Shown here one piece after another: positions 20,710 to 39,071 of a stretch of 64,000 nucleotides of DNA; position 1 is the stretch's first letter, and each line of letters opens with the position of its first letter. The position numbers were made by a program, and so were the translations under genes. This DNA is from Pseudomonadota bacterium (GTDB lineage: Bacteria; Desulfobacterota; Desulfobulbia; Desulfobulbales; JAGXFP01). The notes beneath the pieces are model-generated. The model was not told where the DNA came from. It ran no database searches and saw only the letters and a program-made list of their open reading frames with translations. The stretch covers positions 1-64,000 of the forward strand of contig JAHJAA010000022.1 in NCBI GenBank assembly GCA_018814305.1, given 5' to 3'.

Positions 20710-21882
20710 TTAGTATCCCATGTGACATTGGACACATAAATCCTTTTCACCACTCAACTTGAGATTGTATTTATAATCGGTTCCGTGGGGATAATGACAT
20801 GTCACACAACTCATCTGCAATCCGTTCCGAGGATCATAAATGCCCTCACCCACGGGGTGCGTAAAATCACCCTGGGTTTTATGACAAATGCTGCAGACTT
20901 GAATACCATCGCCTTTCAGCATTGCCATCTGACTCGACCCATGAACAGCATGGCAATCACCACAAGATTCTGTGGCCGGATGACTGTATAATTTGTCGAC
21001 ATACCCGGCAAAGGTATCATTGTGACAACTACGGCAGACCTGAGCCTGTTTGTTCCTGAAAAACTTAGGATCATCCGAGGCATGGGGGGAATGACAAACT
21101 ACGCAACTATTTATCACATTGCCAATCATATGATTCAAAGAACCATATAGCTCGGTCCTGACCTCATCATGACATTCGAAACATTTTTCCGTGCCAACTT
21201 CGGTATCACCATCATGGCAATTACTGCAATCCTCCTCATAGGGAGCATGAAGGAAATCACGGATCATTCCCTGCTTATTGCTACCGTGAGGGCTATGACA
21301 TGTAAGACAAGCCCTTAATTTCTTACCGGGATACCCCTTATGACTTCTGGATAGATCTTCAGCATGACATTTTTCACAAAGTTTTTCCGGAACCACAACT
21401 AAAAGTTGATATTGATCAGACTGATGTGGTTGATGACAAGCATTACAATGTCCTTTTGAGTATGGTTCATGTGGATATTCATATTTCTTTACAAGATCAA
21501 CATGACAATTGTAGCAACTCTCACCCTGATGTTTTTCACTGAGCAATCCCTTGGCAGAAGAAGCGTGGGGAGCATGACAGGCAAGACAGTTTCCTTCTCG
21601 AACCGGCTTATGTATCTTGGTTTGATCCTCTTGAGAAATCACCTTGTCATGACACATATTGCACAATTCGCTGGTTTGTTTCTGGAGTAAACCTTCAAAA
21701 CGAGCCACATGAGGATTATGACAGGATATACATTGGCCCTTCGCGACGGGGACATGAACTACTTTTCCCTGGAAAGCCGATTTTTCATGACATTGAAAAC
21801 AATCAACAACAGCCTTGGCATAAACGACCGAACTACTTACAAGAAAAAGAGAGATATAACAAATCAATCGGATCATCTTCAT
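20710..21882 (-). CDS. Hexadecaheme c-type cytochrome (16 CXXCH)
   Basis: A 390-residue exported multiheme protein (signal SLFLVSSSVVYAK) with sixteen CXXCH motifs, from CFQCH to the C-terminal CVQCHMGY. They come in pairs of the doubled-CXXCH type: one motif followed by PH or PHGS (CISCHNPHV, CLACHAPHAS, CNACHQPHQS, CLTCHSPHGS, CVVCHSPHAS, CGDCHAVHGS, CVTCHYPHGT) alternating with a plain motif. There is about one heme per 24 residues, so the chain is mostly a heme wire. Its ATG overlaps the stop of the 26-heme lipoprotein gene (ATGA), indicating translational coupling. It is predicted periplasmic, passing electrons to or from the outer-membrane components; the redox partner is unknown. Confidence 0.92.
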   Translation of the reverse strand: MKMIRLICYISLFLVSSSVVYAKAVVDCFQCHEKSAFQGKVVHVPVAKGQCISCHNPHVARFEGLLQKQTSELCNMCHDKVISQEDQTKIHKPVREGNCLACHAPHASSAKGLLSEKHQGESCYNCHVDLVKKYEYPHEPYSKGHCNACHQPHQSDQYQLLVVVPEKLCEKCHAEDLSRSHKGYPGKKLRACLTCHSPHGSNKQGMIRDFLHAPYEEDCSNCHDGDTEVGTEKCFECHDEVRTELYGSLNHMIGNVINSCVVCHSPHASDDPKFFRNKQAQVCRSCHNDTFAGYVDKLYSHPATESCGDCHAVHGSSQMAMLKGDGIQVCSICHKTQGDFTHPVGEGIYDPRNGLQMSCVTCHYPHGTDYKYNLKLSGEKDLCVQCHMGY

Positions 21883-23837
21883 TTTGCTCCCTCCCCGGTT
21901 TTATGACAGGGAGTACACTTCCCTTGCTTAAAAGGTTGGTGGGCAACCGGATACAACAATCCGTTGCTGATACCTCCATGGGGATCATGGCATTTCACAC
22001 AAGATTCTCCCGTTGGCGTAATAGAACCATGACTCAGCAAAAAACGCTCATCCTGAGTATGACACTCAGCGCAAATGGTACCTGGTTTATTTATAAGCAT
22101 CCCTTCAAAATTAGCTCCATGGGCGCCATGACAAATCAAGCAATCTTCTTGGGCTGGTGGATGCGGGACTCCGTCTTCCCAATCCTGGGCTATAACAGAA
22201 TGGCACGTCAAACAGAGAATCGGACCTTTTTTGATTAAAATTCCAGAGTAATCAGATCCATGCGATCTATGACAAGCATTACAATTAAATTTTTCAACCG
22301 GGGCATGTTGAATCTTATTCTTTTGAATCTCAACTTCCGTAGCCTTGTGGCAACCGAAACAAAGATTGCTGGGAGTATCTTTCAAAACATTTTGATTCTC
22401 ACTGGCATGGGTAGCATGACACAACACACATTTTCCTTTACCAAAAGGAGAATGTTCACCCTGACGAGGCCCAAGATTCATTATTTTGTTATGGCATACA
22501 GCACAGAGCTGACCTTGCTGTGTTCCTGCAATTAATAATCCCTTTTCTTCAGCCTGATGCGGACGATGACAACTACTGCATTTCCCCTCATTGAAAGGTC
22601 TGTGGACGCTGAATAAACCTTTTTCTTTAACAACTTCAATATGACAAGAACTACACACCTTATCCTCTTGCCCTTTGAGTAAAAGTTTCTCAGATGAGGC
22701 ATGCGAGGTATGGCATGCCAAGCAATTGCCTTCTTTGGCCGGAAGATGTTGATTCTTATCCCCACCACCGTAACTACCTTGTTCATGACATTCAAAACAC
22801 AAGATTTTAACATCCCGCTTCAGCAAAGCAGAACCAGATGATGTATGCCCTTGATGACAGTAAAGGCATTGCCCCTCAGAAACAGGTTTATGCCGGCTCT
22901 GTTCATTGTCCTGAGGTTTGGCAATCCCCTCATGACAAGCGGCGCAAACCTTTCCAGGAGATTCTTTCATCATCCCTACAAAATTACTGGCATGAACGGC
23001 ATGACAACTATCACATTGGTTCCCAGCAAAGGGATCATGTGTTTTTTTCCCAGCATTTTCTACCGGCGTAGCATGACACTTCACACATAAGCTATTGACC
23101 GGCCCAATAAGAGCTAAAGATCCATCATCTTTTTGTGTGTGGCACCCTGAACACTCACCACTCTGAATTGGTTTGTGAACAATTGTCTTCAGAACCCCTT
23201 TCGTCTCGCCGCTATGAGGATCATGACATGAAAGGCAATGTCCGGTGACGACAATGTCAAAGTGTGCGGTTTTTAAAGTCGCACCATCGACAGCATGGCA
23301 GGAAGAACAAAGTGCATCACCATCCGCGACAAGGCGACCGGAATAGTCTGAAGCATGGGGGTCATGACACTGGAAACAACCATTACGAAGTGGGGCATGA
23401 ATATTGGATCGTTTGAAGGGGGTTTCGTCATGACAGGTAAAACAAAGTGCAACACCATTGGCTTTTAACAATTTTCCATTAGGTCCATTATGTACTTCAT
23501 GACATGTTAAACATTTCCCTTTGCTCACAGGAGCATGAACGATAAGTTTGTTTAAAGAAACCAACTTATCCCTATGGCAGGAAAAACAAAGTTGAGGAGG
23601 ATCTTGTCGCAAAAACAACCCACCGATCATTCCATGTGGCTGATGGCAAGCCTTGCAATTTCCTTCAGCAACAGGGGCATGGACAACACCCTGACTATAA
23701 ATACCCCCTAATTCAGGATGACAATCCAAACAGCTCTTCCTTATTCGTTGAGAACCTGTATCCGAAGTTGAAGCGCATGCTGTCAGCAAAACCCCGGCAC
23801 CCATTGCAACGATTATAAACTTAAATAATTTATTCAT
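21879..23837 (-). CDS. 26-heme c-type cytochrome lipoprotein
   Basis: A 652-residue protein with a lipoprotein signal (KLFKFIIVAMGAGVLLTAC) and 26 CXXCH motifs, counted one by one from CLDCH to CTPCH. The repeating unit is about 50 residues: an HAPV-x-EG-x-C-x-x-CH-x-PH half and a CFSCH-type half, as in doubled-CXXCH (PF09699-like) proteins. Paired His in PH, VH and AH supply distal ligands. The lipid anchor suggests the outer membrane, on either face. Such a length could span many tens of angstroms. It is followed by the 16-heme gene with a four-base overlap and preceded by the foldase gene at 20 bases, so all three are in one operon. Orientation in the membrane is unknown. Confidence 0.93.
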   Translation of the reverse strand: MNKLFKFIIVAMGAGVLLTACASTSDTGSQRIRKSCLDCHPELGGIYSQGVVHAPVAEGNCKACHQPHGMIGGLFLRQDPPQLCFSCHRDKLVSLNKLIVHAPVSKGKCLTCHEVHNGPNGKLLKANGVALCFTCHDETPFKRSNIHAPLRNGCFQCHDPHASDYSGRLVADGDALCSSCHAVDGATLKTAHFDIVVTGHCLSCHDPHSGETKGVLKTIVHKPIQSGECSGCHTQKDDGSLALIGPVNSLCVKCHATPVENAGKKTHDPFAGNQCDSCHAVHASNFVGMMKESPGKVCAACHEGIAKPQDNEQSRHKPVSEGQCLYCHQGHTSSGSALLKRDVKILCFECHEQGSYGGGDKNQHLPAKEGNCLACHTSHASSEKLLLKGQEDKVCSSCHIEVVKEKGLFSVHRPFNEGKCSSCHRPHQAEEKGLLIAGTQQGQLCAVCHNKIMNLGPRQGEHSPFGKGKCVLCHATHASENQNVLKDTPSNLCFGCHKATEVEIQKNKIQHAPVEKFNCNACHRSHGSDYSGILIKKGPILCLTCHSVIAQDWEDGVPHPPAQEDCLICHGAHGANFEGMLINKPGTICAECHTQDERFLLSHGSITPTGESCVKCHDPHGGISNGLLYPVAHQPFKQGKCTPCHKTGEGAK

Positions 23838-23857: not shown

Positions 23858-25486
23858 TTATGATTCTTTTAATTTGAGCCACATCTTCTCATTGACATGG
23901 ATCTGAGAACGAGAGCGTAATTCATCCAAATAATTTTGTTTTTGTTGCTCAAACATCTCATCTTTCAGGGTAGTTAATATCGTTGAACGGACCTTATCTA
24001 ACGAATCAACTTCTGAAGGAATCTCTTCTAACAATTTCACTATAGCACTCCCCCCCTCATAAGTGAAAGGATTACTAAATTCCCCTCGGGTCAGCTTATT
24101 TAAAACATTAAGTACCTCCGAAGAAATTTCCGTTTTTGCCTTGCTTAAGATATCGAATTCTTTATCATATTTTTTAACTGTTTCGTCAAAATCACTACCT
24201 AGCAGGAGTCCCGACCACATCTTTTGAATCAATTCCGGCTCATCCGCGATAAGAATATATCGCAACCTCTCCGGCTTACTGTAATCAGCCTTGTGTTCTT
24301 GGTAATAAGACTGAATTTCATTTTCATCGATTTTTATCTTATTTTTTATTCCCACCTCAACGGCCAAACGAAGCCGGTTGTCTTGGTAAAATGACCAGAT
24401 TCCTTTTAAAGGCTCTTCATTTTCATAATGTCGATCAATCGCGGCCTTATCAATGAGTGTTTGAGAAAGTATATTACCTCTAATTATCCCCTTAATATCT
24501 AAAGGGCTTAAAGAACCACCCCGGACTTTACTTTCCCGTTTAATATTTGAAATAAAATCTCGAACGGTAACATTCTGATGCACCATAGTTATGACAATTT
24601 TATCCAAATAATCATCACTATATTCCTTTTCAGAGTCAATTTCTTCATACAACTCCTCATCAATAACGACTTTGTAAATCTCTGAAAGTCGTTGCAACAG
24701 GTCCCTTGTCAATTGATCACGACGTTGTTTATAAATATTATTGAGTATCAATTCCTTTTTTTGTTCAAATTGCTCAAGGGGAGGCGTAGTAATCTCATTC
24801 AATCGGATCAGAATTTTGTGCCCATTTTCAACAACAGCAAAAGGCTTTGATATTTCTCCTACAGCCAGATTCCTTACCGTATCCTCCCATGTCGGGCGAT
24901 TTTTTCGGATAATTTCCGGGGTAACTTGTACTTCATCATAGGCAATAGGCCCCCCTTGCTCCGGAAGTATTCCCTGATAATCAGCAAAAATCAAACGACC
25001 GGCTGGGCCAATGCTTTTCAGGGAAAGATCGGCGTAGGCAGCTTCAGCCTTTTCTGAATTTTCAAAAGTAAGAATTTGCAAAAACCATATTGGCGAATAG
25101 TTCTGATCAAAATTCGCCTTAAGGTCTTCATCTGAAATATCTATTTTCGAATCAATCTCTTCACGTTTCAACGCCATCAATGAACGAACTTTTAAAAAAA
25201 CTTGTAACTTTCGGAGGTATTGCGGCTGTTTGTCATACTCCATGGCACGTCCCTGCTGTACCATTAGTTGGAAATTGAGGTAATCCTCAAGGGACTCAGG
25301 AAAAGGTGCATCTTTCCCATTATTCCAATAAGTCCACCAACTTTTAAAATCATCAGTTGTATAATCCTGACTGTTTATCGTAATCAAGGGCCCGGACGAC
25401 CACCAGGCAGCATTGGCAAAATCAGGCAGCCAGACTGTCGCCAGACAAGTTAATATAATAAATAGACTACATGCTACTCTTCGCAT
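23858..25486 (-). CDS. Parvulin/SurA-type periplasmic peptidyl-prolyl isomerase
   Basis: An exported protein of about 542 residues (signal RRVACSLFIILTCLATVWLP...ANA). It resembles SurA/PpiC-type foldases: an N-terminal SurA_N-like helical part (ITINSQDYTTDDFKSWWTYW), then parvulin-like stretches about 125-250 (SPIWFLQILTFENSEKAEAA, GGPIAYDEVQVTPEIIR, VGEISKPFAVVENGHKILIR). A second helical plus parvulin-like copy follows at about 340-530 (KADYSKPERLRYILIADEPE, LTRGEFSNPFTYEGGSAIVK). Active-site residues cannot be judged by eye. It lies between cytochrome and CsgG-like genes in a probable operon, and likely folds the large cytochromes or the barrel. I chose the second Met; the gene overlaps the upstream lipoprotein gene by 13 bases. 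Confidence 0.8.
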   Translation of the reverse strand: MRRVACSLFIILTCLATVWLPDFANAAWWSSGPLITINSQDYTTDDFKSWWTYWNNGKDAPFPESLEDYLNFQLMVQQGRAMEYDKQPQYLRKLQVFLKVRSLMALKREEIDSKIDISDEDLKANFDQNYSPIWFLQILTFENSEKAEAAYADLSLKSIGPAGRLIFADYQGILPEQGGPIAYDEVQVTPEIIRKNRPTWEDTVRNLAVGEISKPFAVVENGHKILIRLNEITTPPLEQFEQKKELILNNIYKQRRDQLTRDLLQRLSEIYKVVIDEELYEEIDSEKEYSDDYLDKIVITMVHQNVTVRDFISNIKRESKVRGGSLSPLDIKGIIRGNILSQTLIDKAAIDRHYENEEPLKGIWSFYQDNRLRLAVEVGIKNKIKIDENEIQSYYQEHKADYSKPERLRYILIADEPELIQKMWSGLLLGSDFDETVKKYDKEFDILSKAKTEISSEVLNVLNKLTRGEFSNPFTYEGGSAIVKLLEEIPSEVDSLDKVRSTILTTLKDEMFEQQKQNYLDELRSRSQIHVNEKMWLKLKES

Positions 25487-26079
25487 CTGATGAGCCCCTC
25501 CGTATACCACGTATCCAATATTTCATCTGAAATTCGTTTTGAGAGTTCAGTTACGGAACTCACCATACCAAGATGCATTACAGACCTATACTGTCCTCCT
25601 TCACGACGATGATAGGTCGACCAAATCGTCCGTCCGGAATCAGCCTCCAGAATCCTGATGATGACAGCCATAGACGGATCTAGGCTCTTACCCCTGTCAT
25701 CTTTTTCACGAAGCTCCATAATCGTTCCGTAAACAACAATCTGCACTCCAAGGCGATCAGCCAATGCGCGAATCTGCTCAATTGTTGGCATTTGACCAGG
25801 AATGACCTGCATCTGCTGTAATACTTTTCTGGTGTCACCCTCGTGAGCAACCAGATTCGTCCCTGCAACAATCAAGGCATTGGCAAATATTCGTGAAAAA
25901 AAGATTCCAGCGCCGGGATAATTTGTTTGATTGTCAAAAGGCAGAACCGCAACCCGACATATTTTCCCCTCATATGGAATTGGTGCCAACTTGACTAATA
26001 TTGGAGGTTCCTTAACAGAACAAGCGCCCTGGGCGAAAGCCAAAAAGACAAGCGCAAAAAACAAGGTTATTTTTTTCAT
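25474..26079 (-). CDS. Small CsgG/LpoB-like lipoprotein
   Basis: A protein of about 201 residues with a lipoprotein signal (KKITLFFALVFLAFAQGAC). The mature part starts with CRVAVLPFDNQTNYPGAGIF and continues with LADRLGVQIVVYGTIMELRE, IIRILEADSGRTIW and a C-terminal helix. This VAVLPF-N-T plus GxxVxGT arrangement is the hallmark fold of periplasmic CsgG/LpoB/GNA1162-type proteins. It is shorter than CsgG (about 260 mature residues) and lacks an obvious barrel-forming part. Its start could be a GTG at 26091. It overlaps the foldase gene. It is one of three such proteins in the island. Confidence 0.75.
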   Translation of the reverse strand: MKKITLFFALVFLAFAQGACSVKEPPILVKLAPIPYEGKICRVAVLPFDNQTNYPGAGIFFSRIFANALIVAGTNLVAHEGDTRKVLQQMQVIPGQMPTIEQIRALADRLGVQIVVYGTIMELREKDDRGKSLDPSMAVIIRILEADSGRTIWSTYHRREGGQYRSVMHLGMVSSVTELSKRISDEILDTWYTEGLIRCEE

Positions 26080-26342
26080 GAACCCGACCACCCAGCAAAC
26101 GAACCATCAATGGAGTATGAATAGAGCCTGAAAAACAACGTTGACAGCGGATCTTTTATCCAACATAACTTGGTCAGCCACAAACCATGAAAAGGTATAT
26201 CAGTGACAAGTGACACATTGATTACGTTCGCACGGAATAACCGAACCAATACGTTCTTGTGTCTGAAAATGGATACCACCTAAATTAATTAGAAACTATC
26301 CAGTAGCTATTTCTTCCCGGTAATAAGAGAGAAACAAGCTGA

Positions 26343-27932
26343 TCAAAATTCATCTATCCAGACCGGCGATTCCTTGGGAGGTTGTCGATCTAATTCTTGC
26401 TGGTTAGCTAACCCGTTTAAATCAACAATTTTTTCCCTGGAAAAATTTCCCAGGATATCACGCATCACGACAGTCACTTCAACCTTCCTGGTATCCTTGT
26501 CCTCAGGAAGTGCCACATCCATCATCAATGGTGCCGCTTCGGCAACCCGTACTACATTTCGTCCAGCGGCAGGAGGCACCAATTGCTCAGCGACTTTAAT
26601 GACCTTATTTGGAAGAGTCACATCCATTCGATAGGGGAGTTGATCTCCCTCGGCTACCTTAATCAATTCACCGGTTTCAGAGCGCATTTCCATCCGCCAG
26701 AAAGCGATAGGTACTTTTCCATCATGATCAAGGTCGACAATCATGTCTCGCCCTTGATTTTTTGCCTCAAGAACCATGGCTGGAGGGGTCCTGGCAACAG
26801 CTACAGGCTGGGTCGCCACCGCTAAATTATCGGAACGGTCCCAAACTTGCAAAGTTACCCGGTATATACCTTCAGCGGCAGGCCAACCATCTTTGCCCCG
26901 GCCATTCCAAACGAATCTTTTAGGTAATTGCCCATACCCGGTATAACTCATCTGCTCCTGCCCGGCCTCATCCTCAACCTTGAGTTTCCAACGAGCAACC
27001 GGCTCCCGCCTTAACATTCTTGGAATAATAATTACCTGGTCCCGAAAGGCCACTGTTCCTTCAAGTTGTACGCCTTTCAACTCCAGAACAAGTTTAGGCG
27101 GAGCACTATCAATGGTATAAGCACCCAGAAATGCGACTTTTTTATACCCAGACGGCCAATTTATAACGAGGGTGACCGGATAACGCCCATCACGGTCTGA
27201 TACCATCCAATCTGACTCATAACCAAAACCATCCTCGGATTGCCGAGCCATGTAGACCCGCCCCGAAACCTTAAAAAAGACCCTGGGCATATCTTCATCG
27301 GACCAGCGAGTCCTCAATCGGACATTACAATTAACCTGATCTCCCCTTCGGACATGAACAGGAGTCAAATCTACACTTTCTATTTCCAAGGCATGTTGTT
27401 GTTTTTCGACCGTTTCAAACTCAACCGGCCACGAAGTCATAACATTTTGCGCAAGTCGAGGCAGTAACCCTTCCGCTTCCTCCTTCTCACCAACCCCAAG
27501 TAAATTCACAATATCTTGCTGACTCAACCCGCCTGACCCGGTCCAGAGGGTCCGAGTATCCTCGGTTCTGACCAAATAAAGAGTCAATCCAAAGGAAGGT
27601 GATATCTTTTCCTGCCGCAAAGTCATGGTCCCGAAGAGGATCAAATCTACGCCAAGTTCTTCCCGAGCCAATATTATATGTCTGGTGTCCAAAAAGCCCA
27701 ACCACCGAACCCGGTTCCGAGCCATAAAAGACATAACCTCATCTTTAGCTACAACATCAAATCCCTTTTGATTCATATCCCAAGAGAGATATTCCGTCAT
27801 TTCAATATTGACGCCATTTTGACCTTGGCTTAAATCTTCAATCGGAAACACCGCCATGGTCATTGACCAAGCTGGAGCCGCGTGAAAAAAAACCCACGCT
27901 AGAAGTATCGGTAACAAATATTGACGCTGCAT
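26343..27932 (-). CDS. Exported protein with CsgG-like N-terminus and FlgD-like Ig domains
   Basis: A protein of about 529 residues with a cleavable signal (QRQYLLPILLAWVFFHAAPA) and a GGAGGT site 6 bases upstream. Residues about 20-170 are CsgG/LpoB-like: MTMAVFPIEDLSQGQNGVNI, ELGVDLILFGTMTLRQEK, LYLVRTEDTRTLWTG. Several Ig-like modules follow, one of which matches the FlgD Ig pattern (RFVWNGRGKDGWPAAEGIYR). There are no heme motifs. It lies between two small CsgG-like lipoprotein genes (about 260 bases after it and 90 before it). A structural or assembly role in the envelope is the simplest reading. Confidence 0.7.
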   Translation of the reverse strand: MQRQYLLPILLAWVFFHAAPAWSMTMAVFPIEDLSQGQNGVNIEMTEYLSWDMNQKGFDVVAKDEVMSFMARNRVRWLGFLDTRHIILAREELGVDLILFGTMTLRQEKISPSFGLTLYLVRTEDTRTLWTGSGGLSQQDIVNLLGVGEKEEAEGLLPRLAQNVMTSWPVEFETVEKQQHALEIESVDLTPVHVRRGDQVNCNVRLRTRWSDEDMPRVFFKVSGRVYMARQSEDGFGYESDWMVSDRDGRYPVTLVINWPSGYKKVAFLGAYTIDSAPPKLVLELKGVQLEGTVAFRDQVIIIPRMLRREPVARWKLKVEDEAGQEQMSYTGYGQLPKRFVWNGRGKDGWPAAEGIYRVTLQVWDRSDNLAVATQPVAVARTPPAMVLEAKNQGRDMIVDLDHDGKVPIAFWRMEMRSETGELIKVAEGDQLPYRMDVTLPNKVIKVAEQLVPPAAGRNVVRVAEAAPLMMDVALPEDKDTRKVEVTVVMRDILGNFSREKIVDLNGLANQQELDRQPPKESPVWIDEF

Positions 27933-28043
27933 ACGAATACCTCCAACCACCTTAGTGCAAAGCCACCTGCTAAAATCAATTTCAAAACAGATCGAGCGAA
28001 TTATCTCGAATCCTTAAACAATATATCTCTTTTCTATTATACA

Positions 28044-28619
28044 CTATTTTTGAGCCAAATTCCGCAACATATTACGAATAAGCTTTAGATTCACATGGAA
28101 ATTGTCCGTAGGAGCAATCCCAAAAATACGCCCTAAAATCGTCTCAGTGGTCCAACGCCCGCTGGCCTGCCAAATAATCATGGAGGCTTGAGCGTCAACC
28201 AGTCGAAGGGTCAAAGCGACCTGAGGATATTTCGATGAACCAGCTGCGGTAGAATCGACAAGATCAACCGAGCCAAGAAGAAAGGCCTGAACATTCAAGC
28301 GTTGCCCCAGACGTTTCAGATTGATCATATCGACCGGCAAAGTGGGATCGATAACCTCTTCAATCATAACACTGTCAACGACACCACGATCAACGACATC
28401 GGCCACTCCCATTGCCAACAACTGGGTAATAGCAATATTTCGTGATCTTTCACTGGCGTATAGATCATTTGAGTTATTCTGAAAAGGCAGGACTGCTATC
28501 CTGCTGATTGCCTCAAGATCAACATCCTCTCGAAGAAATTCTTCACTCACAAACCGGCCACTACAACCTGCCATAAGGGCCAGTAATACCAGCCCGTAAA
28601 TCAAAGAGAAGATCTTCAT
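28044..28619 (-). CDS. Small CsgG/LpoB-like lipoprotein, second copy
   Basis: A 191-residue predicted lipoprotein (KIFSLIYGLVLLALMAGC). It carries ISRIAVLPFQNNSNDLYASE, a helix ending at VADVVDRGVV, LGQRLNVQAFLLGSVDLVDS, and VALTLRLVDAQASMIIWQAS, the strand-helix order of CsgG/GNA1162-like folds. It is diverged from the copy at 25474. Downstream genes on the same strand are the Ig/CsgG-like protein and the foldase, so it may head that operon. The foldback element at 28707-28900 lies in its upstream region. Confidence 0.75.
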   Translation of the reverse strand: MKIFSLIYGLVLLALMAGCSGRFVSEEFLREDVDLEAISRIAVLPFQNNSNDLYASERSRNIAITQLLAMGVADVVDRGVVDSVMIEEVIDPTLPVDMINLKRLGQRLNVQAFLLGSVDLVDSTAAGSSKYPQVALTLRLVDAQASMIIWQASGRWTTETILGRIFGIAPTDNFHVNLKLIRNMLRNLAQK

Positions 28620-28968: not shown

Positions 28969-31062
28969 CTATCGGATTGAAAAACGTGCCGAAAGAGTAC
29001 TGTCAAACCGGAATTCATTCTCCGTCCCATCTCCAAGATTCAGATAAAGCATACCCAGCTTCAGGGATAAATTATTGTTAATACCCCACGCTAAACTCAT
29101 TTCACCTCGATGATCAATCTGGCTTTGCTCAAAATAATAGTATCGAAGGAACGTCTGGATGTTTCTGCCAACCGCCAGAGAAAATGCCGAGGTCATCGAC
29201 AAGCTATCATCAGAATCTTTTTGATAGGCATAAGAGGCCGTCCCATTCCAGGAAAAGGCCCGAGAAAGTTGCCAACTCATCGTCAAAGAGGAATTGAGCT
29301 GATCAATATTCTTTGCCTGGGTTTTCTGGCGATCATATGACTCATTCAGTGAGAGAACCAATGAAGGCTTCAACCTCGAGGTTATACCAAAGTCAGCGGT
29401 ATAATTTTCCGTATCATTCTTTGAAAGGAAGTCTTCTCGTTGAGCATATTTAAGTCCAAACTGTGATTGCAAATCCGGATACAGCTGGGCATTGCCATAA
29501 AAACTGTACAGATCGGTGGTCGAGATCAGCTCCCCAGCTGTAATATTATCAGATCGCGACCAACCGATGCTCCCAAACAGCGTCGGCAAAAAGGTCTGAC
29601 TTAGATTGAAACTGAGATTGTTATTTTCATAATCATCACGATCTATCTGATTAACCTGGCTCGATCCTGCGCTCAAAGATCCGCTTGTCCCCCAAACTGG
29701 ATTTTTATATTGCAGTTTTGATGAATGATACAGTGAGTTTGAATCGATTCCAGGATCAGATTGCTCCTCCGTCACCTGCAGATCATATCCGAGAGAGAAG
29801 TTTCTCAAAAATTCGAGATCAAATCCAAAGCTTGTTGCGCTAGATTTCTGTTCTGAATCTGTTGAAACTATAGTACCTGTAGTTTCCCGTTTGACCTGCA
29901 GAGCTACAACTTCACTGAAACTGATATCAGGAGCGTTTAACCTCAATTGGACCATGATTTTTAAATAATTATTCTGCAGGTTGCCAATCGGAATAATAAA
30001 TCGTTTATTTACACTATCATATTGAGCCGACAAAGAACCAAGGGTTTCCTCTCTCCATCCCGAGCCAAGAATATCGGTTGAAAAGAGACGCCAGAGCAAA
30101 CTTGAAGTGGAGCCTCGGAAGAGCTGATCAGTATATAAATAAATCATCCCCACTTCTTGACCACTGACCCGGATAATTATTGAATTATCACTGGTATTAG
30201 AATGAACCGTATAGGCAGGGGTCTCAAGAACGCCATCACGCATACTGTTATTATGAACCGGGTCATCAATCCCATCGGAGGGTGTTGTATCGGTTCCTGT
30301 TCGAACTTGTGAGATCAACTGGTCTAGATAAGCAACCCCATACATATCAGTCTTGGCTTCTCTGCTCCCCGCATCGCGTTTAAAATCCTGGGCAACATGG
30401 AATTTCAAACGCTTCCCCCAAAGGGAATGACCTGCTGAGATATTTGCTGATTGAGATACCTGGTTTCTTTCGAGTCCGGTGTCGACATTACCTTCCTTAT
30501 CTGCCCTTAAGGTATACACCAGATTGAAGGCCCGGAGGTTCCAATCTATAGTGGAAAATAAACTATGGGAAAGTGTATTGATTCTCTTCGGAGACAAATG
30601 ATCACTGGACTCGGATTGGGTCAAAGATGTCCGCAGATTTGGCCAATAGGCCTTCTGCCAAAGGCTGACCCCTTCAAGCTCATACGTGGTGCGTTCAGGG
30701 TACGAAGCCACCGACAAGTCACGGACCGTTGAAGCCTTCGCATCGAGAGAGAATATATAATTTTTAATTCTACCTTGAAGATCAGAAGACAACGTTTTGT
30801 TAACCTCTTGATGGGTTACCCATCGCTGTCCATAGCGGATAAATTCAACAGTTGAAAGAAATGGGGTAAACTCCTGGCCGGCACCAACAAAGGCAGCCTG
30901 ATTATACGACTGTATAACCTCACCACTAACCAGCTCATCCGTCTGCCAGGTAACGGAATATCCCATATTCGCCATTACCGGCCTCACCCGAAAAAACAAG
31001 GCCGTAATAACCAATAGAAGAATATATACCCAGCACCACTCCTTTGACAGAGCTTTGAGCAT
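28969..31062 (-). CDS. Predicted outer-membrane beta-barrel (porin-like)
   Basis: A protein of about 697 residues with a signal peptide (LLLVITALFFRVRPVMA) and a GGGGG site upstream of the internal ATG. After an N-terminal domain it consists of alternating amphipathic strands, for example FNLVYTLRADKEGN, FSLGYDLQVTEEQS, FGSIGWSRSDNI and FLRYYYFEQSQID, ending LSARFSIR. About 20-26 strands seem possible. There are no heme motifs. It is flanked by the 16-heme gene (31466) and CsgG-like genes on the same strand, the setting expected of the porin in a porin-cytochrome conduit. It may be the sheath around a cytochrome crossing the outer membrane. That role is inference; a plain outer-membrane or secretion barrel is an alternative. 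Confidence 0.75.
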   Translation of the reverse strand: MLKALSKEWCWVYILLLVITALFFRVRPVMANMGYSVTWQTDELVSGEVIQSYNQAAFVGAGQEFTPFLSTVEFIRYGQRWVTHQEVNKTLSSDLQGRIKNYIFSLDAKASTVRDLSVASYPERTTYELEGVSLWQKAYWPNLRTSLTQSESSDHLSPKRINTLSHSLFSTIDWNLRAFNLVYTLRADKEGNVDTGLERNQVSQSANISAGHSLWGKRLKFHVAQDFKRDAGSREAKTDMYGVAYLDQLISQVRTGTDTTPSDGIDDPVHNNSMRDGVLETPAYTVHSNTSDNSIIIRVSGQEVGMIYLYTDQLFRGSTSSLLWRLFSTDILGSGWREETLGSLSAQYDSVNKRFIIPIGNLQNNYLKIMVQLRLNAPDISFSEVVALQVKRETTGTIVSTDSEQKSSATSFGFDLEFLRNFSLGYDLQVTEEQSDPGIDSNSLYHSSKLQYKNPVWGTSGSLSAGSSQVNQIDRDDYENNNLSFNLSQTFLPTLFGSIGWSRSDNITAGELISTTDLYSFYGNAQLYPDLQSQFGLKYAQREDFLSKNDTENYTADFGITSRLKPSLVLSLNESYDRQKTQAKNIDQLNSSLTMSWQLSRAFSWNGTASYAYQKDSDDSLSMTSAFSLAVGRNIQTFLRYYYFEQSQIDHRGEMSLAWGINNNLSLKLGMLYLNLGDGTENEFRFDSTLSARFSIR

Positions 31063-31240
31063 AATCGGATTTCCCCCCACGTACTCCCTGCAGAAATCTC
31101 TACCACCCAAACCCAACACCAGATCACCAATAAAAACCTATACCCTACAGGAGATAGGATCACCATGTAAAACGAATCTTGAAACACCATGGTGAAAATT
31201 AACTACAGGCTACCTTGAATAATGGCCTTTTGGTCCGATC

Positions 31241-31465: not shown

Positions 31466-33181
31466 TCAATGTGCTTTTATCTTCGGAACCTTGCGATCAT
31501 ATGTTTTGGGGGCATGACACCCTACCACACAGGTCCCACCGGTATCGGTTCTGGTAATATTAATAGGATAGGACCATGCCCCAAAAGGAACTTCATATCG
31601 GATGTGCTTATCCTGGTTACTGGCATGTGGATCATGACAGGCGGTACAGGTTCTCCCTTTTTCACTATTCACATGAAAGAAGTGAAGGTTATAACTCCCA
31701 TCTCTAAAATTGGTCAAAGTCTCTGTCGTCTTAGTCTTAGCGATATCTTTATTATGACACCCAAAACAGAGATCATACTTCTGAGGCCCGTATTCACTAT
31801 AAAATTCAGTCGGGTAATCCCTTACTAATAAGCGACTATAGGTTGAACCATGGGGATTATGACATTCTGTACACGATCCGGTCTGGACTGGACCATGGCG
31901 GTTCTTACTTTCCGAGATATAGTCGCCGAGATCGGTATGACAGGAAAGGCACATGGTCTCAAGGGAATCTTTCAACATTGAAGGATAACTGGAGGAGTGG
32001 ACCCGATGACAATCAACACATCGACCTTCGGCAACTGGTGGATGTTTTACGGTAGCATTATTGATGGTCGCATAAATTTCAGGGGTTGCATCCGCATGAC
32101 ACATGGCGCAAAGCGTACCATCATCTCCCTTCTTTATTAATTGGTACTTATTGGGTGAACTGTGTGGATCATGACACTGACTACAATCTTCCTGTACCGG
32201 GGCATGCAGGTACTCCATTTGAAACTCCACTTTTCGATCCTCGTGACACAGGAAGCAGAGTTCGCCCCCGGCTGGAGGGGCAATCAATAGAAAGTTATTC
32301 GGTGAAGAATGGGGACGATGGCAGGCGATACAGTCACCCTCCTCGACCGGAGCATGCTGATGATCTTTAGAAAACATCCCTTTTTCATGACAATTATAGC
32401 AGAGGGTGCTGACCCGGTCGCCGGTTCCATTCAGCTGATAACGCATATCCGATTCATGGGGATTATGGCATTCAGTACATCCTTCTTCGACCGGGGCATG
32501 AAGTACCTTCTGTGAAAATTCTTCTTTTCGAGCCTGATGACAAATAGTACATAATTCCTGTCCGCTTCTCTCCATAAAAGATGGCTCAAAGGAGCCATGG
32601 GGGCTGTGGCAGGAGATACAGACCCCGGCGCCAACCGGGCCATGGACATGTTTTGCCTTTCCTTTATCTTCATGACATTTTGTGGTGCAATTTGAGCGAG
32701 CCGGCACTAGTTTTTTAAAATCAAATTGCCCCTTGCGTAATCGATGACATTCATTACAAAGCAAGGCGGCTGGTTTGGTATGGACATAAAATCGTTTATA
32801 ATCCTGGGGAGGTGCTTTCTTTTTCCGATCTTTGGTATAAAATACATTTACTAGTGATTTATCGGAACCCGACTCAAGTCGAATGGTATTTAATCCCTCT
32901 TTCAAGGTAATCCCAACCCCAAAAACCCCACCATCGGTTACATTAATCTGCCCTTTTTTAGCATCAGCATCAACCCCACTGATGGCCACATTTTTCTGCC
33001 CGTTTGAGACGACGCCTGCCAGAAAAAGATCCCCCTCAATCACCCAAATCTGATCAGGGGGAGAGACGACCCTAATACCAGCATCAGCAGCAAAAGCCTG
33101 TCCAGCACTAGTCGCACTTAATATGAGTACAATGAAACCTAGAAAAGTCACAACCCCTTGTGAATATTTACTTCTGTCCAT
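31466..33181 (-). CDS. Hexadecaheme cytochrome with N-terminal Ig-like domain (14 CXXCH, 2 CX3CH)
   Basis: A 571-residue exported protein (signal ending near GQAFAADA). Residues about 35-115 form an Ig/Big-like sandwich (IRVVSPPDQIWVIEGDLF, then GVGITLKEGLNTIRLES). Sixteen heme motifs follow: CNECH, CTTKCH (three spacers), CISCH, CTICH, CTECH, CYNCH, CIACH, CFLCH, CSQCH, CAMCH, CVDCH, CLSCH, CTECH, CFGCH, CTACH and the last CVVGCH (three spacers). Most are in doubled pairs with HAPV-E linkers. The neighbouring barrel gene makes this a candidate conduit cytochrome. The 10-heme protein at 36336 has the same layout of an Ig domain then hemes, so the two are probably paralogous. Confidence 0.92.
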   Translation of the reverse strand: MDRSKYSQGVVTFLGFIVLILSATSAGQAFAADAGIRVVSPPDQIWVIEGDLFLAGVVSNGQKNVAISGVDADAKKGQINVTDGGVFGVGITLKEGLNTIRLESGSDKSLVNVFYTKDRKKKAPPQDYKRFYVHTKPAALLCNECHRLRKGQFDFKKLVPARSNCTTKCHEDKGKAKHVHGPVGAGVCISCHSPHGSFEPSFMERSGQELCTICHQARKEEFSQKVLHAPVEEGCTECHNPHESDMRYQLNGTGDRVSTLCYNCHEKGMFSKDHQHAPVEEGDCIACHRPHSSPNNFLLIAPPAGGELCFLCHEDRKVEFQMEYLHAPVQEDCSQCHDPHSSPNKYQLIKKGDDGTLCAMCHADATPEIYATINNATVKHPPVAEGRCVDCHRVHSSSYPSMLKDSLETMCLSCHTDLGDYISESKNRHGPVQTGSCTECHNPHGSTYSRLLVRDYPTEFYSEYGPQKYDLCFGCHNKDIAKTKTTETLTNFRDGSYNLHFFHVNSEKGRTCTACHDPHASNQDKHIRYEVPFGAWSYPINITRTDTGGTCVVGCHAPKTYDRKVPKIKAH

Positions 33182-33496
33182 AATTCATTTCTCCTCGCCG
33201 TCTGGTTGATCAAAAAAGAACAGTCCCATCCAGCCATGTCGCAAGCCGGTTCATAACAATGACAATCCCCCAATCATCATAAAAATATAAATTGAAAGAC
33301 TACAAGGATACCCTAGTGATGTCAAGAATAAAGCAGCACTGACAAGAACCGTGACAAGCGGAACTGGATAGCGAAAAGGACAGCGAAGAAGAGAGCCTAT
33401 TTGTTAAAGTCCAGGATGGGGTCAGCCAAGAAAAACTTAAAATAGCCCTTCCGAATAAGCAGGCATATTCGAAATGCGTTCCTGAAAATTTAAAAT
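33182..33496. other. Gene-free interval
   Basis: Upstream region of the 16-heme gene; a GAGGAGA ribosome site is at its left edge. No gene or RNA is seen. Confidence 0.4.
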
Positions 33497-33535
33497 AAAA
33501 AAAGGAGAACACCTCATCGAGGGGTTCTCCTTTTT
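33497..33535 (-). terminator. Terminator of the second OmcS-like gene
   Basis: AAGGAGAAC and CCTC pair with GAGG and GTTCTCCTT (single bulges) around ATC. On the minus strand it is followed by seven T. It lies about 53 bases past the stop. Confidence 0.88.
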
Positions 33536-33587: not shown

Positions 33588-34505
33588 TTACATCCCAGCA
33601 CCGTAGTCATGACAAGACTCACAACCGCCACTATTGGTTGCATCGCCAGCCTGAACCGCAGTATAATCAAAGGAAAGAAGCTTGTCATTAGCACTACCAT
33701 GGGCCACATGACAAGTAACACACATGATCATATCGGTGGCTGCGCCAGCAGTACCCAAGGGCAGCAGGTCAGTGTCGGCATTAGCGTTATAGTTAGCAAC
33801 ATATCCATACGGCTGAGTGGCGACATCCATCGTGGTCAATGAAACATCGGTAGGATGACGAGTCCAAGCATTCACGGCACCCTGGTTGCTGGCCCCATGA
33901 AAAAGACCATGACAAGAACCACACTTGGTATCAAGGGAGGCACTGTCATAAGCATTGGCTGAACGATTAAAACCAACTCCGTAGCAACCATCAGCAGTAC
34001 CGGTTACACCGGAAAGCAGACGATAGACAGTACCAGCACCACCGTGATGTCCGCCGGAAGCGTCATGGCAATTAGCACAACCGAAGGTACCACCAGCAAG
34101 AGCAGCGCCGCCTGGAGGAGTTACACCCAAGTTACCGTCAACGTTCATGCCAGTCAAATCACTGAAAGGATTATGCTGTTTTGCATCAACGGTGTTGTTC
34201 TTAACGAAATACCCACCTGAAAGCATACCCGTTGCTGAGTTGTCATCGACCTGAGGGGCTGAGAACGTTGCAAAAGCCTTCACACCAGTGGTGGTGTTAT
34301 TGCCGCCACCAGTTGCATGACACCCTTCACAAGTACTACCGGCCCGGAGCAGAGTAGCATTAGGTGCAGCACCAACACCGTTGGTACTGGCATGCATGGT
34401 ATGGCAGTTGACACACTGACCACTGACCACACCGGCATTCGCCATTGCAGGCATAAGAAAAGCACCAGCAATCAGACTTCCAAGGATAACCTTCTTGTTT
34501 AACAT
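33588..34505 (-). CDS. OmcS-like hexaheme cytochrome B (candidate filament subunit)
   Basis: A 305-residue exported cytochrome with signal LNKKVILGSLIAGAFLMPAM and a strong AAGGAGG site. Its six motifs are CVNCHTMHAS, CEGCH, CANCH, CGSCHGLFHG, CVTCHVAHGS and CESCHDYGAGM, with RHP between the fourth and fifth and GGHH after the third. Order, spacing style and distal His positions match hexaheme A and, from memory, OmcS of Geobacter sulfurreducens, though it is shorter. It is Ala, Gly and Asn rich, as expected of a compact abundant subunit. It is a single-gene transcript, with a near-consensus promoter about 110 bases upstream and a strong terminator, which points to high expression. A propeller gene lies directly upstream, as for A. 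Polymerisation is inferred. Confidence 0.87.
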   Translation of the reverse strand: MLNKKVILGSLIAGAFLMPAMANAGVVSGQCVNCHTMHASTNGVGAAPNATLLRAGSTCEGCHATGGGNNTTTGVKAFATFSAPQVDDNSATGMLSGGYFVKNNTVDAKQHNPFSDLTGMNVDGNLGVTPPGGAALAGGTFGCANCHDASGGHHGGAGTVYRLLSGVTGTADGCYGVGFNRSANAYDSASLDTKCGSCHGLFHGASNQGAVNAWTRHPTDVSLTTMDVATQPYGYVANYNANADTDLLPLGTAGAATDMIMCVTCHVAHGSANDKLLSFDYTAVQAGDATNSGGCESCHDYGAGM

Positions 34506-34616
34506 CTTCTTTCCTCCTTATTGTTGAATATCGTGCGCTACCCGAAGCGCATCCCCTTTAATCCAAAACAAAAGCTAAATACATATCCCCTTTACAATCC
34601 AGGATCTCACTGAACA

Positions 34617-34645
34617 ATTTATCACGCTAACAGTTCGTATGTCAA
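34617..34645 (-). promoter_or_regulatory. Strong sigma-70-type promoter of OmcS-like B
   Basis: On the minus strand TTGACA (34640-34645) and ATAAAT (34617-34622) are 17 bases apart. The leader of about 100 bases contains a small TGCGC/GCGCA hairpin and ends in AAGGAGG before the ATG. Confidence 0.75.
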
Positions 34646-34710: not shown

Positions 34711-36318
34711 CTACCTCTTCTCATTGAAATACCAACTGCCAATGAGACCCACAGCGGCCACCGGCCCATAAACGCCCAAGGCTGCAGGAAGTCGCCCCTT
34801 GCTTCGTGGCTTGGAAACCACCGGAATATTTTCAAACAGTGCCACTTGCGCCTTAGGCGGCACCTGCGTCTGATGTTCAGAGGCGACAACAACCTCCACC
34901 CCACCAAGGCCCAACGGCAGGACAGGCACCTCAATCCCCACGGGAAGGGCAGCTTGGGCAGATGCCGGCAAGATGCTTGGCTGGGGAGCTTCAACAATAA
35001 CTTCCCCAAAAGATGCCGTATTGCCACCCGGAACGATCGCCGCAACGGCCTCAACGGAAGTCCCGGAAATCTGACCGGTAATAATCTCGGGAAGCGGTTG
35101 TCGAACCGACATATTGGTATTCATCACTTGGACCCTTCGATTGAAAAGATCCGAAACCAAAACCCGCCCCTCGTCATCAACCGCAATATCGTTGGGAAAG
35201 TTGAACCAAAGGGGAGTCACCCCCCGGCCCCCGAACTCGAAGATGTATTTGCCGGTATCATAATCATAGGCAAGGATGGTGTGTCGCATATAGTCACAGA
35301 CATACATAACCCGACGATCATAATCAACGGCCAGAGAGATGGGGTTTGACAATTTGCGGTCGGCACCGCCTTTTTCGCCAAAAAGAAAAAGGAACTCTTC
35401 CTTGGCATTGTAAACATAACAATGGCTGGTTTCACGACTCAATAAATAGATCCGCCCATTTTTATCGATTTTTACATCGGAAAGAGAGACAGGGAAAAGT
35501 TCCTCATCCGGCTCATCGGAGGAGCTATCACGCCCAGCCCCTCGGGCAGGCATGAGCCCGGACGGAAGGTCCAAGCCAAACCCCTCAGCGTCCTCCCCCT
35601 CAACCGCACCATTTCCGGAGGAATTCTCGCCATCAGGACCGGATACAGTTTTTTGGGCATTAACACCCATGGCTTCTCTATATTTTTGTTTGTACTCCTC
35701 AGTCCTGGTAACGGACCCCAGGGGCCGAATCCAACGACGGAGGGTCCCATCGTTTCCCAGGATCATTACCCCTGAGAGATCTTTATCGATGAGCCCCACC
35801 AGATAGATCTCACCAGCTGCATTCAAGGCAATCCGACGGGGCGTATATTTTTCAAGGCCGGGCATATCTTTAAACACAATCTCCCGCACCAGAAAAAAGG
35901 CAGGATTAAAAATACTGACCCGAGCCGGGCGGCCTTTACCTGCAGACTGACACACATAAAGATTTCCTTTGGCGTCAAGGGCCATTCCTTGTGGCTCCAA
36001 GATGCCACGCCCACTCCCCAACGAGGCAATTGGGAAAAACTTACGGTCATAAACCGTTATTCTGCCGATCGAGGAGACCAGATAGGTTTCTTTTGCCCCT
36101 GGATCATAAAAAACTCCGTGGGGGAAACCAATCTCCAACCCGCTATCATCTAATTTTAAAATGGTAACCAACCGGAGCGGTACGATTTCCTCTGCCTGGA
36201 CAATCGGCGGGGACATGAGCCAACATCCCAGTGAGGTCAATACCAGGAATAAAATCGAGGTACAAACTACCACCTTGAATTGGCGCAATATATTTAAGAT
36301 TGAAAGAGTTATGTTCAT
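34711..36318 (-). CDS. NHL-type beta-propeller upstream of OmcS-like B
   Basis: A 535-residue exported or membrane-anchored protein. The N-terminal hydrophobic stretch VVVCTSILFLVLTSLGCWLM could be a signal or lipobox (LGC). Propeller strands occur at about 60-190 (EPQGMALDAKGNLYVCQSA, TPRRIALNAAGEIYLVGL) and 290-400 (VSLSDVKIDKNGRIYLLSR, NPISLAVDYDRRVMYVCDYM, FPNDIAVDDEGRVLVSDLFN). They are split by an acidic, Ser/Gly-rich insert at about 215-285. A Pro/Ala/Val-rich tail ends with a short hydrophobic segment (VAAVGLIGSWYF) and NEKR. It is larger than the propeller beside OmcS-like A but in the same relative place. It probably helps fold, export or anchor the cytochrome. Confidence 0.8.
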   Translation of the reverse strand: MNITLSILNILRQFKVVVCTSILFLVLTSLGCWLMSPPIVQAEEIVPLRLVTILKLDDSGLEIGFPHGVFYDPGAKETYLVSSIGRITVYDRKFFPIASLGSGRGILEPQGMALDAKGNLYVCQSAGKGRPARVSIFNPAFFLVREIVFKDMPGLEKYTPRRIALNAAGEIYLVGLIDKDLSGVMILGNDGTLRRWIRPLGSVTRTEEYKQKYREAMGVNAQKTVSGPDGENSSGNGAVEGEDAEGFGLDLPSGLMPARGAGRDSSSDEPDEELFPVSLSDVKIDKNGRIYLLSRETSHCYVYNAKEEFLFLFGEKGGADRKLSNPISLAVDYDRRVMYVCDYMRHTILAYDYDTGKYIFEFGGRGVTPLWFNFPNDIAVDDEGRVLVSDLFNRRVQVMNTNMSVRQPLPEIITGQISGTSVEAVAAIVPGGNTASFGEVIVEAPQPSILPASAQAALPVGIEVPVLPLGLGGVEVVVASEHQTQVPPKAQVALFENIPVVSKPRSKGRLPAALGVYGPVAAVGLIGSWYFNEKR

Positions 36319-36335: not shown

Positions 36336-37559
36336 TTACATTCCCAAGGCATTTTTCTTACTATCATGACACATGACACAAATTCTCCCACCCCGGATAT
36401 CAGCGATCAATAAATACCGATACGGTGAGCCGTGGGGATTATGGCAACTTGTGCAGGTAAATGCATACCCATCGCGCCGGGGATCTTTTCGACCGGCGAT
36501 TGGATGCTTTTGGACCGGATGACCGAGTTCAACACCCTGCAGCGCGGAATGACAACTGACACAGAGCTCGTTAATTTCGGAGACCAACTGAAATTTATAA
36601 TTGGTGGCATGGGGACTATGACAGGCAACACAACCTTGGGCGCTCAAAATCCCATGGACATTGAAACGTCTCTGGCCGGAGTCAAGATACTGTTTTTTAT
36701 CCACATGGCAGACGACACAGAGCTTTGCCTTGCCATCGGCGGCCAGCTGGTATTGATGCTGGCTCCCATGGGGGTCATGACAAATTGAACAGTCACCAGT
36801 CCCAACCGGCCCGTGGATATGAGCCATGGTCGTCCATTTACTTTGATTGACGTGGCACTGAAAGCAAAGCCCTTCAACCTTGCCGGAAGGAATCTGGACG
36901 GATTTTTCATCCTGGGGCGCCTGATGGCAGGTTCGGCAGAGCAATCCCGAAGCCGGAAAATGCTTCCACTCGGATTCAACCGCAATTCGACTATGACAGG
37001 AATAACACTCAGGTGAAAATTTCCCATAAAGAACCCGGTCAACCTTAGCGCCAGCAGGAAGTTCGTTGGAGTGGCATCCGCCGCAAACATCAGGAATAAC
37101 TCCATCTTTATGGAATTTGTAGATCCCCTCCTTGGTGAAATCCACGTTCAACAAAGAACTAAGTGGAGAAAATTTCACCTTCAGGGTTTGATTTCCGGGG
37201 GTAAGGGTGAAGGTATTCGTCCCTTTCGTTAACGGAAGTCGGTAATGGATGTAATACTCATTTGCTTTTTCATAACGACCGGACGGATCAAAATTACGAC
37301 CTGTCTTATCGTCCTTAAAATTCATTTGATTGATGTCGCCTTTGTCTTCGACCTTGACCACCACATTGAGAACCCGATTTCTGGATAACAACGTCGTTGA
37401 CGATTCCTGGGGGGCGATTATCGAAACATTACCGGCAAAGGCAGGCAAAGCCCTTGCCCCCCAAAAGCCCCCGGCTACAATCATTATAGCAAGAGCACGG
37501 GACACCTCACCGACAAGCCCTCTTTTCCCCGATAAGGCAACGCTGCCTCTTCCGTTCAT
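36336..37559 (-). CDS. Decaheme c-type cytochrome with N-terminal Ig-like domain
   Basis: A protein of about 407 residues with a long n-region before the signal core (ALAIMIVAGGFWGARALPAF). Residues about 45-145 form an Ig-like domain (NVSIIAPQESSTTLLSRN, then YYIHYRLPLTKGTNTFTL). Ten CXXCH motifs follow: CGGCH, CYSCH, CRTCH, CFQCH, CSICH, CVVCH, CVACH, CVSCH, CTSCH and CVMCH, alternating plain and DPHG/SPHA/NPHG types. The layout equals that of the 16-heme protein at 31466 with fewer repeats. It is 17 bases upstream of the propeller gene and so probably shares its transcript. It is predicted periplasmic or at the outer membrane. Confidence 0.9.
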   Translation of the reverse strand: MNGRGSVALSGKRGLVGEVSRALAIMIVAGGFWGARALPAFAGNVSIIAPQESSTTLLSRNRVLNVVVKVEDKGDINQMNFKDDKTGRNFDPSGRYEKANEYYIHYRLPLTKGTNTFTLTPGNQTLKVKFSPLSSLLNVDFTKEGIYKFHKDGVIPDVCGGCHSNELPAGAKVDRVLYGKFSPECYSCHSRIAVESEWKHFPASGLLCRTCHQAPQDEKSVQIPSGKVEGLCFQCHVNQSKWTTMAHIHGPVGTGDCSICHDPHGSQHQYQLAADGKAKLCVVCHVDKKQYLDSGQRRFNVHGILSAQGCVACHSPHATNYKFQLVSEINELCVSCHSALQGVELGHPVQKHPIAGRKDPRRDGYAFTCTSCHNPHGSPYRYLLIADIRGGRICVMCHDSKKNALGM

Positions 37560-37732
37560 TTTCATCCTCACAAATCTTGCCTACCCCGACAATCCCATCA
37601 GCTTCCCCGAAGGAGCCCCTGGTAAATCGATCGAGATCGTGCTCTTTCTCACAAAGAAACGGGCATCACATCCCCCAGTCCATTTCCTGTAAGCATTTAA
37701 TATAGATGGGCCTTAATCAGGTCTCCTGATCC

Positions 37733-38773
37733 CTAATTCGTGTGCTCCTTTTTTTCAAGGAGTTCATAGGCTTTACGATACTCCTTAGCAGCACCTGTAA
37801 TATCATTTTTTTCCTCAAGCATAACCCCTAAATAATAATGTAATTCGCTATGCCTTGAATTCCTGAGCATCATGAAATTCAAATCATCAATGGCTTCATC
37901 GAGATTTCCCTGAGCAGCCTTGAGTCTTGCCTGACACATCAGCCCAGCAGGCATGTCGGGCTCAAGATCCATCCCTTTTTCCAATTCCGCCTTAGCCTCA
38001 TCAAGCTTTCCGGCATCAAGCAGCAGGCACCCTAAATAGACATGGGCCGGCCCCATCTCAGGCTCATACTCCAAAGCCTTCACAAATTCACGAATGGCCG
38101 ACTCGGGTTGTCCCCGTTCAAGCATAGTCTTCCCCAGATGAAAATGGCGATTGGCTCCCTTTTCTTCCTTCGATTTTTCAACCATCTGCGGTCTGAGTTC
38201 TTCCTCTACCTGGGCCTGGGTCTTTTCACCCAATAAAATTTCTATCTCGCCTTTCAAACGTTTATGCAGATCGGAACTATATCCCATTCCACTAGTGATT
38301 TTCCCATCGGCACCCACCAAGAGTATGGAGGGCATAACAAATATACCCAGACCACCATAGGCCTGGCGATCAACATCACTATAAACCGGCAAGCCAAGCC
38401 CGCTTTGGCTGATAACATCATTTATGATGTCCGGGGTGTCTTCCTCCTGAACATCAACGACCAGAGTGGTCACCCCTTTTTCCGCCAGATGCTCTTCCAG
38501 TTCATGAATTACCTTCAAGGTTTCGATGGAACGTTCCTTCTTGGTGGCAATGTCCGCTCCGAAAAAAACCGCGATCAACGGTTTTCCCTGAAAGGAATCC
38601 AAGGCCACGTTCTGCTGATCCTTAAGATTTTTAATGGTAACTGATGGCAGTGAATCACCCGGATGAACCGAACGAAAGGGGAATGAATTAGCCTCCCCGA
38701 TCCCAGCAAGGAATATAACAAAAGAGATGGTGATTCCGACAAATACAGTAGTAATATTAACCTTGCGTGCCAA
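37733..38773 (-). CDS. Cysteine-less thioredoxin-like protein with TPR repeats
   Basis: A protein of about 346 residues from a TTG start with a GGAGGAG site. A signal or anchor helix (ITTVFVGITISFVIFLAGIG) leads into an AhpC/TlpA-like thioredoxin fold at about 35-190 (PGDSLPSVTIKNLKDQQNVA, GKPLIAVFFGADIATKKE, VMPSILLVGADGKI with the cis-Pro). The catalytic CXXC is missing: ADIATKK stands where Cys-x-x-Cys would be. Residues about 205-340 are four TPR units (AIREFVKALEYEPEMGPAHV, LDEAKAELEKGMDLEPDMPA). It probably acts as a non-redox chaperone or scaffold. It sits about 170 bases upstream of the decaheme gene on the same strand and diverges from the Mrp operon. Confidence 0.78.
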   Translation of the reverse strand: MARKVNITTVFVGITISFVIFLAGIGEANSFPFRSVHPGDSLPSVTIKNLKDQQNVALDSFQGKPLIAVFFGADIATKKERSIETLKVIHELEEHLAEKGVTTLVVDVQEEDTPDIINDVISQSGLGLPVYSDVDRQAYGGLGIFVMPSILLVGADGKITSGMGYSSDLHKRLKGEIEILLGEKTQAQVEEELRPQMVEKSKEEKGANRHFHLGKTMLERGQPESAIREFVKALEYEPEMGPAHVYLGCLLLDAGKLDEAKAELEKGMDLEPDMPAGLMCQARLKAAQGNLDEAIDDLNFMMLRNSRHSELHYYLGVMLEEKNDITGAAKEYRKAYELLEKKEHTN

Positions 38774-39071
38774 TGTCTTTCTCCTCCATGAAACGCGACC
38801 CGATCGGGCAAATATACTCACCTCCCCCCCCAGACACCCAGGCAGGGCAGGCCCCCCTCTAAAACTCCTGTGACAAGTAAGGGAACTTAGCATGGAAAAA
38901 AATAATTGTCAAAAATTGTTTCCATAGCCGGATTTAAGTAAAAAAATATATTATTCATGTGGCTCGTTTGGGGCATTTATATATATACTACCTTCTGAGT
39001 AACAGCAGACCGGAGACTTCAACCTCTTATATTTTAAACGTAATCCTTTACTTTTTGGATGTGGTTACCAA

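Follow-up and report, generated by a model that had tools for sequence, protein, structure and literature searches.

Among the hexaheme homologs of Geobacter, OmcS is the only one known to form wires (PMC12977616), and in its filaments heme ligation crosses from subunit to subunit, a histidine of each binding a heme in its neighbor (PMC9473688, PMC12954529). Its companion is the osc (omcS-companion) nanowire-assembly cluster of Shen et al. 2025, whose content is given here as papers citing it relate it, with gene letters from PMC13194489. In these accounts, Geobacter osc is an eight-gene block, GSU2500-2493 (PMC12977616), in which oscI is GSU2495 and oscJ GSU2494, and links are drawn between OscH and folding, OscEFG and secretion, and OscD and morphology (PMC13194489). 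In Desulfurivibrio alkaliphilus, DA_402 is the most up-regulated multiheme cytochrome during iron-oxide respiration (>100-fold on ferrihydrite), and DA_756 and DA_765 are up-regulated as well (PMC12545173). Related gene sets have been described as a large-cytochrome operon in seep sulfate reducers (PMC5539420) and as the OmcX/OmcS-like/Apc2a set (PMC10553843).

The island as an osc cluster

We analysed a stretch of 64,000 nucleotides (the window) from a Desulfobulbales bacterium. All genes from 38893 down to 16727 lie on the minus strand:

37733–38893, minus: redoxin and TPR protein
36336–37571, minus: decaheme cytochrome (doubled CXXCH)
34711–36318, minus: NHL beta-propeller protein, directly upstream of the target
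33588–34505, minus: the target, a compact OmcS-superfamily hexaheme c-type cytochrome by sequence (305 aa, ~281 aa mature), 'position A' of the osc cluster
31466–33181, minus: 14-heme cytochrome (doubled CXXCH)
28969–31119, minus: putative outer-membrane barrel, channel-like osc position
28044–28619, minus: LpoB-like lipoprotein, channel-like osc position
26343–27950, minus: FlgD-Ig-domain protein, channel-like osc position
25474–26091, minus: diverged relative of the LpoB-like lipoprotein, 205 aa
23858–25510, minus: PpiC-type prolyl isomerase, OscH position
21879–23837, minus: 26-heme cytochrome, OscI position (PMC13194489)
20710–21882, minus: 16-heme cytochrome, OscJ position (PMC13194489)
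19718–20644, minus: NHL beta-propeller protein, GSU2493-like position
18601–19707, minus: second OmcS-superfamily hexaheme, 'position B', heme 3 being CX5CH, 10 nt after the NHL gene
16727–18190, minus: YncE-like beta-propeller, OscD-like

By gene content and order, the island is the already described osc cluster, as far as the citing papers lay that cluster out (PMC13194489, PMC12977616): prolyl isomerase, 26-heme, 16-heme, propeller (NHL) and channel-like genes stand in the same single order beside an OmcS-like gene. The earlier note had overlooked this identity, which the synteny brings out. Compared with osc in those accounts, the island adds the 14-heme, decaheme, redoxin-TPR and 205-aa lipoprotein-like genes, and its YncE-like propeller has moved to the far end. 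The gene at 28969–31119 is placed by its position, its product having no Pfam match. The products of 25474–26091 and 28044–28619 are diverged relatives of each other (weak LpoB-like/FlgT-like matches), perhaps a duplicated secretion lipoprotein.

The order NHL, hexaheme, barrel, LpoB, Ig, (205-aa), prolyl isomerase, 26-heme, 16-heme, NHL, hexaheme is conserved in eight other same-order genomes. Geobacter-like genomes carry a shorter version of the cluster, with an OmcS that is 72–73% identical to 6ef8 and whose gene is also preceded by an NHL gene. The target occupies this omcS slot, after the NHL gene and before the channel-like block. In the seep sulfate-reducer operon, smaller cytochromes likewise flank the shared four-gene core (six-bladed propeller, 16-heme, 26-heme, prolyl isomerase); going by its description, the OmcX/OmcS-like/Apc2a set has this core and smaller cytochromes too. 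In L049/L050 (G009:C4) and L072 (G206:C53), the 26-heme and 16-heme genes appear as one 42-CXXCH open reading frame, of 1010 and 1049 aa.

The target cytochrome and its relation to OmcS

The reading frame of the target starts with ATG and encodes 305 residues, as had been claimed, and its surroundings and motifs are as follows:

34616–34645, minus: promoter-like site TTGACA-18-(TG)TAAATT, placed 110 nt upstream of the ATG; shuffling gives P of about 0.03
34513–34519, minus: ribosome binding site AAGGAGG, 7 nt before the ATG
34434–34505, minus: predicted signal peptide MLNKKVILGSLIAGAFLMPAMANA, signal peptidase I type (AxA site), from inspection of the translation by eye
34401–34415, minus: heme site 1, CVNCH, then TMH
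34317–34331, minus: heme site 2, CEGCH
34065–34079, minus: heme site 3, CANCH (CX5CH in the paralogue)
33909–33923, minus: heme site 4, CGSCH
33708–33722, minus: heme site 5, CVTCH-VAHGS
33609–33623, minus: heme site 6, CESCH
33491–33535, minus: intrinsic terminator, hairpin and T tract, −20.9 kcal/mol

The six heme motifs are all present as first reported, while shuffled versions of the protein contain a mean of 0.02 CXXCH and at most one (n=5000 shuffles). A single cysteine lies outside the heme motifs, in DGCYGVG between sites 3 and 4. The lipobox cysteine looked for as the mark of a surface lipoprotein cytochrome of the OetB type is absent, the signal peptide ending in AMANA before a G. 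The claim that the target repeats the motif order of the first hexaheme (the position-B gene) holds for the order of sites, yet the latter has five CXXCH and one CX5CH (CAGQNGCH, site 3). CAGxxGCH at site 3 is an uncommon but conserved heme motif, shared by almost every position-B relative and by many of those in position A.

Pfam and NCBIfam returned only generic doubled-CXXCH models for the target, and phmmer with the single sequence against the PDB gave no match at E up to 1, so that family profiles were needed. A two-sequence profile matched OmcS alone (2e-9), and a 22-sequence profile matched OmcS 6ef8 at E 2.7e-26, the next chain following at 0.006; hhalign of the target family against OmcS gave a probability of 99.7%. 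The OmcE and OmcZ families (four and eight hemes, unrelated sequence) are ruled out, as the target has six hemes and no OmcE or OmcZ chain is found among the PDB matches of its family profile. All six proximal and six distal histidines align one-for-one with those of OmcS and in the same order, the distal H38, H111, H154 (or H153), H203, H217 and H269 corresponding to OmcS TMH, GHN, DPH, DIH, RHP and RAH. Among 22 relatives, 11 of the 12 ligand histidines occur in all and the HH ligand in nearly all. H38, invariant in 22/22, aligns with the CHTMH histidine of OmcS (GSU2504 of G. sulfurreducens, PDB 6EF8/6NEF), His16 of the mature protein, which we take to be the intersubunit ligand. On this evidence, the target is assigned to the OmcS superfamily.

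The earlier description of an OmcS-like hexaheme is supported by the profile search, by the order of motifs and ligands and by synteny, although the protein does not fall within the clade of OmcS itself. The tree rules out an OmcS ortholog, separating the target from the OmcS clade by a 100/100 branch and 1.6–1.9 changes per site and placing it in a large sister clade of OmcS that also contains D. alkaliphilus DA_402; a 'sister clade of OmcS' is likewise reported in PMC12545173. The target thus shares superclade and cluster position with the Desulfurivibrionaceae proteins DA_402, DA_756 and DA_765. It belongs there to a short subclade (97/85) with CXXCH at site 3 in all members but one, whereas DA_402 has 431 aa, a seventh motif and CX5CH at site 3. 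Like OmcS it has a signal peptide and follows an NHL gene; unlike OmcS it has only ~281 mature residues (407 in OmcS), and the losses fall mostly between sites 3 and 4 (52 residues against ~99) and sites 5 and 6 (33 against ~73). It is the shortest full-length member seen in the phylum sample. AlphaFold2 with 14-row alignments yielded no usable model (pLDDT 34.6 for the target, 33.9 for the paralogue).

Outside the island, the same genome has a third OmcS-superfamily hexaheme of 424 aa (L003:556-1830, G000:C7:136181-137455), which stands alone with osc genes absent around it. Close relatives of the target in same-family genomes, L012 (G003:C26) and L015 (G002:C68), also stand alone, osc genes being absent from the surrounding stretches read.

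Two hexaheme positions

The near-consensus promoter proposed earlier is partly borne out: TTGACA is exact, but ATAAAT at 17 nt fits TATAAT at 3/6 positions only. TAAATT with an 18-nt spacer and a TG extension is the better −10 reading (10/12 in total), and since dinucleotide shuffling of the intergenic region (205 nt) reaches this score in 2.8% of cases, the promoter is plausible rather than outstanding. The AAGGAGG site and the strong terminator were both recovered, 0/200 shuffles folding as well as the terminator hairpin (z −5.6); AGGAGGAAAG also lies ahead of the position-A genes in G019 and G012. Because Geobacter cytochromes use GEMM riboswitches, one was suspected in the 5' leader of the target; a search of the leader found no riboswitch, and its hairpin is weak (z −1.7).

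The stand-alone setting recurs. In nine same-order clusters, the gap upstream of position A is 205–662 nt, the duplicated A gene of G046 excepted, and in 7/9 genomes it is followed by a hairpin resembling a terminator, at −20 to −35 kcal/mol (missing in G008 and behind the second of the two A genes in G046). Position B, by contrast, lies −4 to 61 nt behind its NHL gene in 9/9. Position A is accordingly organized as a predicted separate transcription unit and position B, by its spacing, always within the assembly operon. Between OmcS and its position-B homologs the same contrast is seen in G405, roughly in G205 and not fully in G331. Two ancient, separate clades for the two slots are ruled out, since the tree needs 5–6 changes; what sets A and B apart is hence where they lie and how they are regulated, not their ancestry.

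In similarity to ribosomal-protein codon usage among 69 genes (104 kb), the paralogue ranks first and the target second (score 0.108, expected −0.071 ± 0.022); this ranking may partly reflect strand or local bias, as other island genes rank high too. Together with the stand-alone slot and the strong terminator in 7/9, the ribosome-like codon usage gives indirect support to the proposal of an abundant single-gene subunit. G008 is D. alkaliphilus, in which the published DA_402 primers match at 468.6 kb, at position A of a second osc copy. In its first copy, the B and A hexahemes are nine genes apart, a spacing that would fit DA_756 as B and DA_765 as A.

As the second hexaheme is always co-transcribed with assembly genes, its role could be that of another filament, of a minor subunit or of a part of the assembly apparatus. 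It is conceivable, if doubtful, that A and B co-assemble, one as bulk wire and the other as an initiator, cap or anchor produced in a fixed ratio to the machinery. Such a division would suit the occupation of both slots in 8/8 same-order clusters, the separation of A from a B always held in the machinery operon, and the joint up-regulation of DA_765 and DA_756 if the nine-gene spacing assigns them correctly; the repeated exchange of slots in the tree (5–6 changes) speaks against it, and the equal codon bias of both window genes is more in line with both proteins being abundant than with one being minor. The earlier note had instead proposed two filament types; as two independent homopolymers, we regard these as somewhat unlikely. 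The two hexahemes are indeed diverged (~28% identity by BLAST) and both ribosome-like in codon usage, and Geobacter makes several wire types (PMC12954529); yet B is operon-bound, its Geobacter relatives have no known filament, and across the order this island regularly carries a hexaheme pair, with B always co-transcribed with assembly genes.

Proposed role and mechanism

As an OmcS-related hexaheme adjoining known nanowire-assembly genes, the target most likely builds an electron-conducting filament, and we consider it probable that it polymerises extracellularly into an OmcS-like filament and is the main wire subunit of this Desulfobulbales bacterium. Judging from its surroundings, the target would have a transcription unit to itself, separate from the genes of the machinery. 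After Sec export it would receive six bis-histidine hemes, as the observed motifs and ligands suggest. The adjacent osc machinery, which comprises the prolyl isomerase, the LpoB-like and Ig-domain proteins with the barrel, and the propellers, would then fold it and move it across the outer membrane, if the syntenic genes function as in Geobacter. Outside, the conserved CHTMH histidine (H38) would ligate a heme of the next subunit and so create a continuous heme chain. The decaheme and the 14-, 16- and 26-heme cytochromes encoded beside it could feed electrons into this wire, which would carry them to iron oxides, to an electrode or to a partner cell. The sequences themselves show the homology, the set of ligands, the export signal, the gene context and a conserved arrangement of transcription units; from these we infer heme loading, secretion by way of osc, polymerisation through H38 and wire function for the target.

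Against this reading stand the long branch that places the target outside the OmcS clade, the fact that OmcS alone is known to form a wire among the Geobacter hexahemes, and the length of the target: with ~126 residues fewer than mature OmcS, it cannot reproduce the large OmcS interface exactly. Furthermore, the requirement for OmcS filaments in Geobacter iron reduction is disputed (PMC11077965), so that even a full structural analogy would still leave the physiology unsettled. It seems improbable that the target is a non-polymerising OmcS-like carrier, a periplasmic or surface monomer or short oligomer working with the osc-associated cytochromes: Geobacter OmcT, OmcJ and OscC lack demonstrated filaments (PMC12977616), OscC (GSU2501) is listed as periplasmic (PMC13194489) and the target is unusually short, but the intersubunit histidine is retained in 22/22 relatives, a secretion cluster adjoins the gene, and the position-A protein of D. 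alkaliphilus is predicted to be extracellular and is the most induced on iron oxide. A filament-forming target could be one half of a broader scheme, speculative and rather unlikely as a whole, in which osc across Desulfobulbales holds a fixed hexaheme pair: a bulk wire (A), trimmed to ~281 residues for six hemes, and a machinery-coupled starter, cap or anchor (B).

In summary, the earlier observation is right in its essentials and largely accounted for: the target is, as far as sequence can tell, a new and unusually compact OmcS-like family member in a known assembly cluster. A further Desulfobulbales family thereby joins those in which nanowire-type cytochromes come with an assembly cluster, and one of the two hexahemes in the island is singled out as the likely wire. 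The contrast between slots A and B, seen in nine same-order and two Geobacter-like clusters, offers a direct way to ask whether the widely conserved position-B/OscC-like cytochromes belong to the assembly apparatus. A compact subunit, if true, would indicate the amount of protein required for an OmcS-type heme chain: should the trimmed-wire reading hold, ~281 residues would carry six hemes, far below the 407 of OmcS, the sole solved hexaheme nanowire subunit.
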